Made by a program: the position numbers and the translations under genes. Below the pieces are notes generated by a model. It did no database searches. It was not told where the DNA came from and was given only the letters and a program-made list of their open reading frames with translations. Positions 14,258 through 28,837 of a DNA stretch of 31,367 nucleotides are shown here, piece by piece (position 1 is the first letter of the stretch; every line of letters starts with the position of its first letter). Origin of the DNA: a virus. Location: positions 1 to 31,367 of IMG/VR virus record IMGVR_UViG_3300034198_009155. The stretch is one strand, 5' to 3'.

Positions 14258-14294
14258 AAAAAAAAGGCTTGTAATTAGTTTACTACAAGCCTTT
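14258..14294 (-). terminator. Intrinsic terminator between major capsid and sheath genes
   Basis: AAAGGCTTGTA (14263-14273) and TACAAGCCTTT (14284-14294) form a perfect 11-bp stem around a 10-nt loop. On the minus strand the stem is followed by a run of eight T. It lies in the 77-bp gap between the capsid stop and the sheath start, so it would stop part of the transcription and raise capsid over tail expression. Confidence 0.75.
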
Positions 14295-14314
14295 CTTATT
14301 AGTTTATTTATTTA

Positions 14315-15253
14315 TTAAGATACCCAAGCTTGAACTAAAGCACAAACACCTTTCATGTCTGCTCTTAAGATTGCTGAACCTAAAAGAACCTCCATGTTAA
14401 AGATAGAACCTAAATACTCAGGTTTACCATTACCATTGTCTCCTTGGTCATACATTGGATTCATAGAACCTAAAGCACGTGATACAGTTGTTGGATGCCA
14501 AGCAATACAAGCTAAACGGTCAGATACTACAGTAGCAGTTCCTGGTACAGTTGGTACAGTTGCTGTTTTAGCATAAATAGATACTGTTGGTCTCATCATG
14601 ATTTCAAAACCAAACAATTGAGCTACCATTCCAGTTGACAAAGTGTTTGTACCATTTGCCATTTGAAAGCCATTATAAGATGCACGAACTACTTCAGAAA
14701 TTGTAAACAATTCCCAAAACATATCAGCATTCATTAACAATTTACGACCAACTCTTGGAACGTTGTCTTTGTCCATTTTCTTTGCTAAGTTAGCAATATC
14801 AATTAATGTAACTGCTTTACGTGTTCCTGTTGCTCCTGGAGCTAAAGATGTACCTGCAGTACCAGTTGTTTCAACAATGTTAGCTGCACCAGTTGCTGAC
14901 CAAGTATAAGCAACTTGAGTACCAATACTTTCAACTAAAGTTTTAATTTGCTGACCAATAACTGAGTTCTTCTTGTCGTAAGATACTTGAATAGCATCTA
15001 AGTTATCAATTAACGTTGGCTGTAAAGCATAACGAGTTAATGAATAAGTTCTATCAGCATCCACACGTGGTGCAATAGTCAAAGGGAATGATGTCGGGTT
15101 TACTAATACTGTTGGATTAGCTCCTGATTGTGGAATGTGTACAGTTCCAAATGCAACGTATTGCGAGTGGTCTACTGATGCAGGTAAAAACGCTGCGTCT
15201 TGAGTTAAAGTTTCAACAACTTCGTTTACCCAAATTTCTTTAATTAATGCCAT
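14315..15253 (-). CDS. Major capsid protein
   Basis: A 312-residue protein placed directly after the protease/scaffold gene, as expected for the HK97-fold coat protein. The start (MALIKEIWVNEVVETL) and the stretches FPLTIAPRVDADRTYSLTRYALQPTLIDNLDAIQVSYDKK (about 57-96), SVIGQQIKTLVESIGTQVAY, VPRVGRKLLMNADMFWELF (about 163-181) and VSDRLACIAWHPTTVSRALG (about 243-262) read as coat protein blocks: N-arm, spine helix, P-domain and A-domain. No separate decoration gene is visible. A terminator follows it, which fits its need for high expression. Confidence 0.8.
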   Translation of the reverse strand: MALIKEIWVNEVVETLTQDAAFLPASVDHSQYVAFGTVHIPQSGANPTVLVNPTSFPLTIAPRVDADRTYSLTRYALQPTLIDNLDAIQVSYDKKNSVIGQQIKTLVESIGTQVAYTWSATGAANIVETTGTAGTSLAPGATGTRKAVTLIDIANLAKKMDKDNVPRVGRKLLMNADMFWELFTISEVVRASYNGFQMANGTNTLSTGMVAQLFGFEIMMRPTVSIYAKTATVPTVPGTATVVSDRLACIAWHPTTVSRALGSMNPMYDQGDNGNGKPEYLGSIFNMEVLLGSAILRADMKGVCALVQAWVS

Positions 15254-24770: not shown

Positions 24771-26552
24771 TTAGAAGTCTATTAAAGTGTTATTATTAAT
24801 TAATTGGTTTGTTTCATTTAAAAAATTTGTATTATCAATTTGTTTAGGAGCTTCAATTGTATTTATCCAAGATTCATAAGTTGGCGTTCCTTTGTAGTAT
24901 CTGCCATTTGTTTTATCCCATCCCATTTGAATGCATCCCGTTTGTCCCCAATGTTTAAACTTTACTTTTTGTACATATATTTCTGTTAATCCTGTTTCAT
25001 AATCAAGATACACTGTTATTCCGTTTGCTGTTTTATTGTAAAAGTTAGCCGAGCCACTAATAGAGTAAAGGTTTGGTATTTCATATTTACCAGTTGTTTT
25101 ATCCTTTTGTATTTTAGTTGGATGAGCTACTAAAAAGCAATGTACTTTATTTTTTTCACAAAATATAGTTATTTTATCTAATTGTTCAGAAATATATTTA
25201 GTTTCATTAGTTGTATATTGGTGGTCAAGTTTATTCCAAGCATCAATAACAAAGGCTTTAATTCCTTTTTTACGAACTAACTGCTTTACTGCAGCTAATA
25301 TATTATCAAGTGTAAAATCGTTTTCAGGATTAATAAAAAAGAAATTTTTAGAGTGATATTCAATTAAGTTTTTTAAATCAATTGGACTTAATCGGTTAAT
25401 TCCTTCAAATGGTTTTCCTGATATTTTTTCTGCAAATTTACTAAAATGAAGTTCTAAAGGGTGGTTTTCTGGTGAATATAAAGCTGTTTTCCAATCATGT
25501 GATATATTTAACCTACATAATAAAAAATCTAAAAATTCAGACTTACCATGACCTGGAATACCTGTTATGGTTGTTAAGTAACCCTCTTGAAACTTGATAT
25601 GCATGTCTACTTCACCAACACCAATTCCACATCCTTGAGGTAAACCGTTGTTATAATATTCATAAATATCACGCTCAATATCTAAGGCGTTAAATACACC
25701 AACAATTGGAAACTCTTTAGCATCGTTAATTGAATCAATAACGGCTTTCATACCATATTTAATTAAACAATCATTGGCGTCTTTACAATCTTTAAAAACT
25801 ATTTTACTGCAATTTTCAAAGCCTAAACGCCTTGCTAATTCATTTTGTAGGTTTAAACCTGCTTTATCATTATCAAGTGCTAATAAAAACTTTGTATTAT
25901 CTGAAAATGAATCAATACAATTATCTAAGTATTCAAAGTTTATTTTACCTAAGCCTGCACCATTTGGAACTGATATTACATTTTTAAAACCACATTCATA
26001 AATGGCTAAGGCGTCCATTTCACCTTCGCATATTATAATTGTTTCATTATCAATTGTAGCATCTAAGTTATAAAATATAAGCTCAGCATCTTTAAACAAC
26101 TTAAAGTCTTTATTTTTTCCACGTGATTTGATATTTATTAGTTCTCCATTCCTAAAATAATTAAATTGTATTGTTGGTATTTCTGACCTTGCTTGAGGCA
26201 TCCATTCAATTGCTTCAGTAACTTTTAAGTCTAATAGTGTTTTTTCGCTAATTAAACGACTTCTAAAGAACTTTATACAGTTATCGGTATATTTACTTAA
26301 CTCAACTATTTTTGGACGCTTATATTCATTGTATGTAGTTTTAGGTTCAAAAGGTTTATTTTCTACTAAAACAATTCCACAATGGTTACATCGACCAGCT
26401 CCTTTGTTTAGGTTAAAAGAAAAACATTTATCGGTTTTCTTTTTACGATCAGACGAACATTCAGGGCAAACCATTTGATTTTCTCCATTTTTATGTACGT
26501 CAATGGTATACTCTTTTTTATCTGCTAAGTTAATTACTTTGATATCGCTCAT
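24771..26552 (-). CDS. Primase-helicase (Toprim + DnaB-like, T7 gp4 type)
   Basis: A 593-residue bifunctional replication protein. A zinc-binding primase domain opens it (C29-x2-C32 ... C55-x2-C58). A Toprim domain follows with E176 in ICEGEMDALA and D227/D229 in LALDNDKAG. The RecA-like helicase has Walker A GIPGHGKS (331-338), and AFVIDAWNKLDH serves as Walker B. The order resembles T7 gp4: primer synthesis and DNA unwinding in one chain. It starts on the last base of the replication initiator stop, so the two genes are coupled. It would load at the candidate origin in the gene upstream. Confidence 0.9.
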   Translation of the reverse strand: MSDIKVINLADKKEYTIDVHKNGENQMVCPECSSDRKKKTDKCFSFNLNKGAGRCNHCGIVLVENKPFEPKTTYNEYKRPKIVELSKYTDNCIKFFRSRLISEKTLLDLKVTEAIEWMPQARSEIPTIQFNYFRNGELINIKSRGKNKDFKLFKDAELIFYNLDATIDNETIIICEGEMDALAIYECGFKNVISVPNGAGLGKINFEYLDNCIDSFSDNTKFLLALDNDKAGLNLQNELARRLGFENCSKIVFKDCKDANDCLIKYGMKAVIDSINDAKEFPIVGVFNALDIERDIYEYYNNGLPQGCGIGVGEVDMHIKFQEGYLTTITGIPGHGKSEFLDFLLCRLNISHDWKTALYSPENHPLELHFSKFAEKISGKPFEGINRLSPIDLKNLIEYHSKNFFFINPENDFTLDNILAAVKQLVRKKGIKAFVIDAWNKLDHQYTTNETKYISEQLDKITIFCEKNKVHCFLVAHPTKIQKDKTTGKYEIPNLYSISGSANFYNKTANGITVYLDYETGLTEIYVQKVKFKHWGQTGCIQMGWDKTNGRYYKGTPTYESWINTIEAPKQIDNTNFLNETNQLINNNTLIDF

Positions 26553-27187
26553 TAGTAAACCATTTTTAAGGGTGAGTTTGTGTCAATTATTTTGTTTTCA
26601 GGTTTAAACCAAACTGCCTGAGCTTTTTGTTTCCAGTTTTTAACTTTATTTCCTTTGCTATCTTTCCACGAAGCTACGGAATAATAATCATAAAACTTTT
26701 GGGCTGAAGATTCAGAGTAGCCATTTTCAAAAAAATAAAGTTTAATATCGTTTATATTTATTTCTTTTTCTTCTTCTTCTTTTATTCTTATTTCATTCTT
26801 ATTCTTATTCTTCTTTGTTGAAATTCGTTGAACGGTCGTTGAACGGTCGTTGAGCAATCGTTTAACGTTCGCTCTACTTTCCGCACTTTTCTTACCATTG
26901 GCAGAGTTTACTTTTGATACATGGTTAGCATCAATTAACTGTTCGTCTAAGAATTTAATTGAAATTATATCATTTTTAACCTCAACAAATCTATTAATTA
27001 AATCTGATAATTCATTAGGATTTTTATATCTTTTATTAATATCCTCAATTGATAAATTACCATCACGTTGCCAATATAAAGCACAAATATTAATAAATAA
27101 ACCTTGAGTAGATAATGACTCAAAAACTATATCACCAGTCATCCATTCAGATACAGTAAATTTAAAATATGGAAAATTCTTTGCCAT
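26552..27187 (-). CDS. Replication initiation protein with DUF1376-like winged helix
   Basis: A 211-residue protein. The N-terminal half (YFKFTVSEWMTGDIVFESLSTQGLFINICALYWQRDGNLS, residues 6-45) matches the winged-helix pattern of DUF1376-like phage replication proteins. The middle (about 100-145) is low-complexity Lys/Glu/Asn, and the C-terminal domain has EKFYDYYSV-like and WKQKAQAVWFK helical segments typical of initiator or helicase-loader tails. The gene contains 11-bp iterons (26826-26869) and an AT/pyrimidine tract, as lambda O does. Its leader can form kissing hairpins. It starts a coupled pair with the primase-helicase. Confidence 0.7.
   Translation of the reverse strand: MAKNFPYFKFTVSEWMTGDIVFESLSTQGLFINICALYWQRDGNLSIEDINKRYKNPNELSDLINRFVEVKNDIISIKFLDEQLIDANHVSKVNSANGKKSAESRANVKRLLNDRSTTVQRISTKKNKNKNEIRIKEEEEKEININDIKLYFFENGYSESSAQKFYDYYSVASWKDSKGNKVKNWKQKAQAVWFKPENKIIDTNSPLKMVY
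26761..26869. other. Candidate replication origin: four 11-bp iterons and an AT/pyrimidine-rich tract
   Basis: Four adjacent 11-bp units occupy 26826-26869: CGTTGAACGGT twice, then CGTTGAGCAAT and CGTTTAACGTT. An almost pure pyrimidine plus A tract (26761-26816) built from TTATTC-like repeats lies next to them. Eleven is not a multiple of three, so each unit encodes a different peptide and the repetition is unlikely to be a protein constraint. Iterons beside an easily melted region inside the initiator gene are the layout of the lambda-type origin. Origin function is inferred. Confidence 0.6.
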
Positions 27188-27283
27188 TTTATTTAATAAA
27201 AAAACCCATGCCTTTGGAGTGTGCGCTCCGCAAGCAATGGGTTAATAAGTTAGTTAATTAAATAGCATCGCACAATGCCTTAA
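27188..27283 (-). promoter_or_regulatory. Structured leader with kissing hairpins upstream of the replication initiator
   Basis: On the minus strand a first hairpin, GCAT-TGTGCG-ATGC (27278-27265), has the 6-nt loop UGUGCG. A second has outer stem AACCCAT/ATGGGTT (27243-27237 with 27209-27203), middle CTT/AAG and inner GGAG/CTCC (27229-27226 with 27219-27216). Its 6-nt loop is CGCACA (27225-27220), the exact complement of the first loop. The outer stem is followed by seven T (27204-27198), then about ten bases and the ATG. The structure thus looks like a terminator or start-site blocker whose loop can kiss an upstream hairpin. Regulatory function is inferred. Confidence 0.6.
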
Positions 27284-27289
27284 CTTCTA

Positions 27290-27297
27290 CAAATATA
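27290..27297 (-). promoter_or_regulatory. -7 promoter box (TATATTTG) for replication genes
   Basis: An exact TAnnTTTG match on the minus strand, in the gap between the PD-(D/E)XK nuclease stop and the replication initiator. Initiation near 27283 would make the first kissing hairpin the very 5' end of the transcript. No TTG is seen at the -33 distance. Confidence 0.5.
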
Positions 27298-27321: not shown

Positions 27322-27999
27322 TTATTTTATAAAATTATTAAATTCAATAATATTATAATTAAAATTATCAATATGAATTATATAACAATTTTTTATATCG
27401 TATTCTTTACACATTGATTTGTATAAACTTAATTGTAATGAATAATGATAATAATTTGAATCAGGATAAAAAGAATATTCTCCTAACATGTATTTATTAT
27501 AAGATTCCTTTTCTATTTTATTATTTGTTTTCCAATCTAAAATAAAATATTCATCCTTTTTATTTTTAGCTATGCAATCAATTTGACCAGCTAATTTATC
27601 ATTGTAAACTATAAATTCAGTTTCAATCGGAGTTAATATTTCTGTTTCAAAATAATCATTAATAAATTTTTTAACTATATTTTCTTTTTTTGAAATTCCT
27701 AAAAGTTCAATTTTATTATTTAAAATATAATTTTCAAAAATAGTATGACAAGCTATTCCATTTTTTATTGATAGGTCTGCTTTATCTTTCCATTCTCTTA
27801 AAACTTCTAATTTATTTAAACCATGTTTTTTAGAAAATATTTCAGCAATAGAATCGGAATCAAATTTATTTTTAAACTGACTTATATAAGTCGTAACACT
27901 TTTTAATTGTTTATCTTCTAAAAAATATGTATGATTTTCAGAATTAAAACACACTTTTTTATCTTTACTATATTTATTCATATTTTTTATATTTTTCAT
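27322..27999 (-). CDS. PD-(D/E)XK nuclease, Cas4/RecB-like exonuclease
   Basis: A 225-residue nuclease of the PD-(D/E)XK superfamily. Motifs in order are H85 in GIACHTIFEN, E126/E128 in IETEFIV, D141 in LAGQIDCIA, D155-x-K157 in FILDWKT, and Q189-x3-Y193 in YSLQLSLYKSM. The spacing matches phage RecB/Cas4-like exonucleases, but no four-cysteine iron-sulphur cluster is visible. It would make single-stranded tails for the ERF annealing protein encoded at 574. It overlaps the glycosyltransferase gene; an internal ATG at 27981 gives a smaller overlap (8 bp rather than 26) and is an alternative start. Its base composition is even richer in A and T than its neighbours'. Confidence 0.75.
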   Translation of the reverse strand: MKNIKNMNKYSKDKKVCFNSENHTYFLEDKQLKSVTTYISQFKNKFDSDSIAEIFSKKHGLNKLEVLREWKDKADLSIKNGIACHTIFENYILNNKIELLGISKKENIVKKFINDYFETEILTPIETEFIVYNDKLAGQIDCIAKNKKDEYFILDWKTNNKIEKESYNKYMLGEYSFYPDSNYYHYSLQLSLYKSMCKEYDIKNCYIIHIDNFNYNIIEFNNFIK

Positions 28000-28837
28000 T
28001 TATTATCATAGGAGTTGCAACAGACCAATCAATTAAATGATGCAATCTTTTATTAGTTCTTCCCATTTTATTAATTTTACAACAATCAGGTCTACACATA
28101 ACAGTATAAAAAGATTTTACATATGTTCCACTACTTAAATATGCTTCGGTCATTCCACCTTTTGTTTTTTGTGTTTGCATTTGGTCTAATTGTATAAATG
28201 GAATAGTTAAAAAAACATTTCCTTGATGTCCTAATTGCATATATGTATTTACATCTTCATTTAATCTACTAATAAACATAAATCTTCTTTTAGTTGAACA
28301 AAAAAAAGAGTTCATTGCTTTTCTTTTTGGGTTTTTATTAAAATTAGTTTCACCTCCAAACCAATCACCACCTTGTGATAAACATATAGATTTAAAATTA
28401 GCGTTTTTATAATATTTTAAAACTGATAAAAAAATATCATCAATTCCTTTTTTTATATTAGGGCAACTTTTAGGATGTTTTAAATAGTTATTAATTCTAA
28501 ACTTAAATGATGTATAATCATCATCTAATACTAAAAAATATTCATAACCTAAATTTTCAGCAAAATCAAAACAAGCATTTCTTGCGTGAGTTGTAGTTCT
28601 ATAATTACCAGAATTATCAAAATTATCTACTAAAGAAGCATAATATTTTTTATTAAATTGTAAAACATTGTTTTTATATTTTTCAAAATAAATAAAATCA
28701 GTTTTATCTTCATTATCTATTATAATATAAATGGGTAATTTACATTCAATTTGTTTTAAAGTTTTTAATGTAATAATATCATTTGGTCTGCCATGTGATA
28801 TTATAAATATTACTAAATTATTCTCCATAAGTTTCAA
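27974..28837 (-). CDS. Glycosyltransferase-like protein, TET-associated (TAGT) type
   Basis: A 287-residue protein with a nucleotide-sugar transferase pattern. SHGRP (residues 14-18) follows the first strand, HARNACFDFAENLGYEYFLVLDDD (84-107) carries the DxD metal-binding motif in VLDDDYTSF, and a later part has GGDWFGGE and GTYVKSFYTVMCRPDC. This order (GRP, ARN, DDDY) resembles the TET-associated glycosyltransferases that in some phages add sugars to modified DNA bases. It lies between the PD-(D/E)XK nuclease and an uncharacterised gene in the early region. No TET/JBP or base-hydroxylating enzyme is seen in the window, so the substrate is unknown. Another glycan target cannot be excluded. 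Confidence 0.55.
   Translation of the reverse strand: MKLMENNLVIFIISHGRPNDIITLKTLKQIECKLPIYIIIDNEDKTDFIYFEKYKNNVLQFNKKYYASLVDNFDNSGNYRTTTHARNACFDFAENLGYEYFLVLDDDYTSFKFRINNYLKHPKSCPNIKKGIDDIFLSVLKYYKNANFKSICLSQGGDWFGGETNFNKNPKRKAMNSFFCSTKRRFMFISRLNEDVNTYMQLGHQGNVFLTIPFIQLDQMQTQKTKGGMTEAYLSSGTYVKSFYTVMCRPDCCKINKMGRTNKRLHHLIDWSVATPMIINEKYKKYE

Follow-up and report, generated by a model that had tools for sequence, protein, structure and literature searches.

The leader between a predicted promoter and a replication-associated gene on the minus strand of this virus (IMG/VR record IMGVR_UViG_3300034198_009155; the window is the whole stretch analysed, 31,367 nt) raises the question of whether two adjacent hairpins with complementary loops form an RNA switch, and on which step of gene expression such a switch would act. 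The original prediction described loops UGUGCG and CGCACA as exact 6-nt complements and gave hairpin 2 three stems and a U7 tract just 5′ of the ATG, all of which is borne out by the minus-strand sequence and by folding (Table 1); an outer stem, P1, comes in addition to that description. The Bacteroidetes −7 consensus TAHHTTTG belongs to the primary sigma factor, and in Flavobacterium johnsoniae a transcription start was mapped 4–5 nt downstream of it (PMC6847099). With this spacing, the outer stem should supply the first base of the RNA, which would then not begin past hairpin 1; this also speaks for the predicted kissing interaction. With a G+C-rich hairpin and U tract, a promoter on one side and a gene on the other, the window leader has the layout of an attenuator leader, and its U7 tract lies 10 nt from the ATG (27187). 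A simple consensus terminator scan of the window did not list hairpin 2, because of its internal loops. Elsewhere, at 27974–28837, the window encodes a TET-associated glycosyltransferase (Pfam TAGT, E 3.3e-26; PHROG 842, HMC glucosyltransferase) adjoining a ParB-like gene, which suggests a glycosylated, hypermodified phage DNA.

Table 1 Features of the window leader, its surroundings and related leaders
Feature	Position	Strand	Sequence or remark
Upstream same-strand gene, PD-(D/E)XK exonuclease-like	27322..27999	-	stop ~25 nt before -7 element
Promoter -7 element	27290..27297	-	TATATTTG; Bacteroidetes consensus
Predicted transcription start (+1)	27285	-	first base of P1; 4-nt spacing after -7 element
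Outer stem P1	27252..27285	-	AGUUAA 27285-27280 / UUAACU 27257-27252; encloses hairpin 1
Hairpin 1 (P2)	27264..27279	-	stem GGCAU/AUGCU 27279-27275 / 27268-27264; loop UGUGCG 27274-27269
A/U-rich linker, P1 to terminator hairpin	27244..27251	-	from alignment
Hairpin 2 (predicted terminator)	27203..27243	-	from fold and covariation
Hairpin 2 lower stem	27243-27237 / 27209-27203	-	AACCCAU/AUGGGUU
Hairpin 2 middle stem	27235-27233 / 27212-27210	-	GCU/GGC
Hairpin 2 apical stem	27229-27226 / 27219-27216	-	GGAG/CUCC
Hairpin 2 loop	27225-27220	-	CGCACA
Kissing helix, 6 bp	27220..27274	-	UGUGCG 27274-27269 with CGCACA 27225-27220
U7 tract of predicted intrinsic terminator	27204-27198	-	from sequence
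Downstream gene, 211 aa, replication-associated	26552..27187	-	PHROG 9327, E 2.7e-6; PHROG 29280, E 3.7e-23
Primase/helicase, next in operon	24771..26552	-	bait for relatives
Second-class segments, L055	4312	+	CCGACGAAA/UUUCGUCGG
Second-class segments, L102	3822	+	UCACCGCCAAG/CUUGGCGGUGA
Second-class segments, L074	~729 nt before primase		GCUACCAAGU/ACUUGGUAGC
Loci with ~75-aa protein after leader	L004, L006, L028, L033, L050, L057, L061		
Small ORFs overlapping leader or promoter	L160:14157-14300, L341:252-371, L202:686-781, L328:780-920		
Loop pair, morran9-1			GUGAGAAG/CUUCUCAC
Loop pair, lillamy9-1			GUGAGACG/CGUCUCAC
Loop pair, mumin9-1 and snusmum6-1			GUGGAACG/CGUUCCAC
Loop pair, Flavobacterium phage 11b			CGGGCAGG/CCUGCCCG
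Loop pair, elemoA_7-9A			UGAGAGC/GCUCUCA
Loop pair, elemoA_2-5C			GUGAGAUG/CAUCUCAC
Loop pair, elemoE_6-9C			GUGGAGG/CCUCCAC

That such an arrangement is unlikely by chance can be argued from the window sequence by itself with moderate force. Two adjacent hairpins whose loops share at least 6 complementary nt, at least 4 of them G/C, arose in 0.2% of 20,000 dinucleotide shuffles, a complementary-loop hairpin pair without the G/C demand in 15%, and the pseudoknot-free fold reached z = −2.1. Relatives were therefore needed, and it is the joint change of the loop pairs among them that makes the case.

The primase/helicase served as bait to collect 80 IMG/VR loci, from which 12 copies of the element could be aligned straight away; their loops already differed, with compensation. 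In some loci related to that of the primase no copy could be detected, which counts against a role as attenuator. A search of IMG/VR with a pattern that fixed the promoter, the outer stem and a GAG..CTC apical stem, but neither of the loops, returned five loop versions (UGUGCG/CGCACA, UUCGGG/CCCGAA, UGCGGG/CCCGCA, UGUGGG/CCCACA and UGGUGG/CCACCA), perfectly complementary in every match that shared the other features of the family. Distant members, a 7-nt class among them, were retrieved with a covariance model built without the kiss, and all had complementary loops. The true relatives in both searches were kissing members only, and such searches, ignoring loop sequence, place the element in many uncultured phages. 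About 32 different loop pairs of 6–8 nt were collected in total. As members found by scanners that require complementarity pair perfectly by design, the fair sample consists of 17 pairs that came from close relatives or from searches blind to the loops, and in this sample complementarity was perfect in 17/17; scanner matches without promoter or ATG were dropped as chance. A pattern for the 7-nt class, although too loose, added at least a few members among the matches listed. A scan for the architecture (promoter, U5, ATG and, on the 5′ side, at least 7 nt that can pair with the terminator region) found 27 distinct copies versus 2 in three shuffled data sets.

The element gave no match in a BLAST search of phage records; its members vary too much to be found by sequence. 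A pattern of the window type matched 37 scattered stretches of genome contigs, in which a structural scan detected no true copy. Likewise, covariance models R1 and R2, narrow models applied with strict filters that may miss copies, gave 11 weak matches in 351 Flavobacteriaceae genomes, none with kissing loops and none a convincing copy. In the window itself, a strong terminator-like hairpin with U tract on the minus strand (14260–14337) scored a weak 21.8 bits to the covariance model without the kiss, lacks kissing loops and is probably an ordinary terminator.

Among 14 distinct relatives, pairing of the 6-nt kiss is 100%, and 4 of its 6 pairs have changed on both sides. P1 is paired in 100% of cells with one pair changed on both sides from AU to UA, the stem pairs of hairpin 1 covary, and covariation over the whole structure amounts to 0.213, compared to 0.098 in shuffles. 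The subfamily with a 7-nt kiss (12 sequences) pairs in 98.8% of cells and covaries in all four helices (0.545 vs 0.191); pairing of its kiss is 100% and 4/7 pairs have changed on both sides, and in its hairpin 1 pairing is likewise 100% and two pairs covary. In both subfamilies hairpin 2 covaries and kiss covariation is well over shuffles and slid controls. Loops thus vary only with compensation, in agreement with the predicted kissing interaction, and the comparison supports the kiss, the hairpins and their position well.

Nearly all copies have a TTTG-containing −7 element 2–11 nt before hairpin 1 and a U5–U7 tract, and typically lie shortly past the stop of a same-strand gene. A same-strand ATG follows 3–44 nt downstream, mostly at 3–19 nt and in some copies at 34–44 nt; at 3–19 nt from the U tract, as in most copies, a second promoter cannot fit. 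The genes behind the element are unrelated among copies and often serve replication or recombination (DUF6291, DUF1376-like or primosomal, ERF, helicase-methylase, BT4734-type primase, HNH-like and small unknown proteins). The proposed tie to a replication initiator finds no support: the window gene is weakly primosomal-protein-like (PHROG 9327), elsewhere unrelated genes follow, and the element is thus not tied to any single initiator gene. Among the first genes after the leader, one for a small unknown protein of ~75 aa (MEKTK.VFCSS... or MNVKTIYCCDD...) recurs, with differing loop pairs. Full contigs carry 1–2 copies with different loops, in some genomes on opposite strands.

Complementary loops are also inverted repeats in DNA, and since the element adjoins replication genes, a protein-bound repeat or a cruciform at a replication origin could be imagined. 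However, the repeats fall exactly in hairpin loops, the polarity of promoter, hairpin, terminator and ATG is fixed, and two copies per genome stand before unrelated genes. In addition, the covarying stems contain G-U pairs in the transcribed strand, which argues for RNA rather than DNA and makes a DNA-level feature scarcely credible.

The only evident promoter and the ATG lie on opposite sides of the terminator, which transcription from that promoter must pass to reach the gene. We therefore propose with moderate confidence that the leader attenuates transcription in cis and close to the promoter, with a 5′-terminal hairpin that kisses the terminator loop. Transcription would begin at the first base of the 5′-terminal hairpin, whose loop would pair with the apical loop of the terminator hairpin as the latter emerges. 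The kiss, 6–8 strict Watson–Crick pairs and short enough for two closed loops, would tie the RNA 5′ end to the terminator and thereby determine how much of the polymerase halts at the U tract and how much goes on into the gene, the ATG of which usually lies within the next 20 nt. Conservation concerns the architecture rather than the loop sequence. Since each copy has its private loop pair, the leader should act on its own terminator. By eye, no pairing that competes with the terminator was seen. The kiss itself does not compete with it for base pairs and would therefore act through folding kinetics or stability, or through recognition by polymerase or a shape-reading protein. Because the kiss is compatible with a complete terminator, there is no obvious antiterminator fold, which counts against attenuation. 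We infer that termination takes place, is regulated, and is pushed one way by the kiss; its sign is a guess, with a slight leaning towards a kiss that favours terminator folding, i.e. default off. During infection, a putative factor would lift this default-off state, either by recognising the kissing complex or by keeping it from forming.

The original prediction had named transcription attenuation or start-codon occlusion. Of these, attenuation is likely, whereas occlusion is improbable, as the structure leaves the AUG free. More generally, the structure might impede ribosome loading, as the AUG lies 10–20 nt past the last stem in most copies and start-proximal secondary structure tunes translation in F. 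johnsoniae (PMC6847099). Nevertheless, control of translation appears very improbable to us: not only the AUG but also the A-rich region upstream of it is outside all helices, the AUG is 34–44 nt away in some copies, and the constant U tract would be left unexplained.

In the kissing class no conserved leader ORF was found by eye, and a 4-codon ORF is confined to the window copy. A second class of leaders lacks hairpin 1. Here 9–11 nt close to the 5′ end of the RNA are the complement of a segment in the terminator region, and an ATG follows the 5′ segment immediately. Its frame seems to run on without a stop as far as the terminator or past it, so that these are possibly leader-peptide attenuators. 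A further type, ~1305 nt (L032) and ~1131 nt (L076) before the primase, combines hairpin-1 loop AGUAACGAA with a long linker holding a second complementary segment and UUCGUAA/CUCGUAA at the terminator apex.

Between close relatives, 2, 4 or 6 loop bases change together in pairs, and the neighbouring sequence stays the same. Compared to relative L001, the window differs in 6/12 loop bases and in 2/44 bases of the terminator part, and L058 and L065 differ in 4/14 and 0/42, respectively; other close pairs kept their loops. The kissing 6-mers average −8.1 kcal/mol versus −6.0 kcal/mol for random 6-mers, and 7- and 8-mers are slightly stronger than random, no more. Such loop turnover is compatible both with a shape device that drifts and with selection that favours private codes. 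Tentatively, the switch might even be sequence-independent, with only the kiss between 5′ hairpin and terminator loop being of importance, read by polymerase or a shape-recognising protein, and with loops diversified against cross-reaction between leaders of the same or competing phages.

Phage P4 CI RNA and P1 c4 RNA are leader RNAs that use hairpin complementarity and premature termination and act in trans as immunity RNAs of temperate elements. By analogy, the element could be a ~90-nt small RNA with its own promoter, 5′ hairpin and terminator, acting in trans, e.g. as antisense or immunity RNA on co-infecting phages, with the loops as specificity codes. It has the full anatomy of such an RNA, phages from the same hosts carry different loop pairs, and between the window and L001 the loops change in whole compensated steps with the rest constant. 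Yet a free small RNA needs neither the same-strand ATG that nearly always follows within 3–44 nt nor the lack of room for a second promoter, and with the complement already in cis, intramolecular pairing should win. Loops within one genome differed in 10/10 genomes, which is not significant given the diversity of loops. Among cultured phages, a structural scanner and similarity searches found the element in Lillamyvirus, Muminvirus, Elemovirus and Flavobacterium phage 11b. Of these, Mumin and Lillamy phages have been described as lytic (PMC7077304), so lytic phages carry it too. We therefore regard an action in trans as unlikely.

A candidate that precedes the Rha gene in Bacteroides phage B40-8 is without covariation support; this 7-bp candidate is shared with BF702P1 and shows one uncompensated mismatch in BF766P1, which counts against the attenuator reading. 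Small annotated ORFs that overlap the leader or promoter in morran9-1 (gp42), elemoA_2-5C, snusmum6-1 and BF766P1 are probably spurious gene calls over regulatory RNA.

Like attenuator leaders with an intrinsic terminator, e.g. of the pT181 or trp type, the element combines a promoter, a structured leader, the terminator and a gene directly after it. It differs in that no leader peptide or antiterminator fold was found by eye and the kissing partner is built into the same RNA instead of being an antisense RNA, as is also the case in comparison to ColE1 RNAI–RNAII, where loops of 6–8 complementary bp meet between two molecules and Rop reads the kissing shape, not the sequence. In the guanidine-II riboswitch ligand binding precedes kissing, and the loops are short and conserved. 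Its two linked hairpins were proposed to kiss via their loops (PMC9094411), whereas our leaders have a kiss of 6–8 bp, non-conserved loops and an attached U tract; guanidine-II gave no gathering-level Rfam match in the window or 15 related loci.

The put leaders of phage HK022 are cis-acting early leaders with two hairpins at the RNA 5′ end, which suppress termination through sequence-specific polymerase contacts (PMC9378689). A folded leader that binds RNA polymerase so that it resists both the leader's terminator and those further on would agree with two hairpins right at the 5′ end of early-type genes, and with 1–2 copies per genome, some on opposite strands, as for putL and putR (PMC9378689). 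However, put itself is not a terminator, while hairpin 2, with its U tract, is predicted to be one. Moreover, put needs specific polymerase-contacting bases, whereas no loop or stem sequence is common across our subfamilies, with put set beside them by description. A put-like function is thus quite unlikely.

No Rfam 15 family was matched at its gathering threshold in the window or the 15 related loci, and nothing real at E-value thresholds. The best match, 23S-methyl RF01065, is weak (27.3 bits, gathering threshold 50); both have two stem parts followed by a terminator, but the RF01065 model has no kissing loop. No description of the element was found in the open-access literature searched, and a large human-microbiome survey of candidate structured RNAs could hold unnamed members (PMC8040213). 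We place the element among the attenuator leaders, as a variant whose architecture is undescribed.

We know of no described attenuator or riboswitch class that works by a kiss independent of loop sequence. Single-loop and compensated double-loop mutants would make the mechanism directly testable. The ever-changing but perfect pairing poses the question of whether a pure shape device drifts neutrally or private codes are kept among phages that share hosts. The leaders are an undescribed family of structured RNAs with strong covariation, present in cultured phages of a group, the viruses of Bacteroidetes, whose gene control is poorly known, and very probably they represent an RNA switch of a new kind, which governs transcription of the genes behind it.
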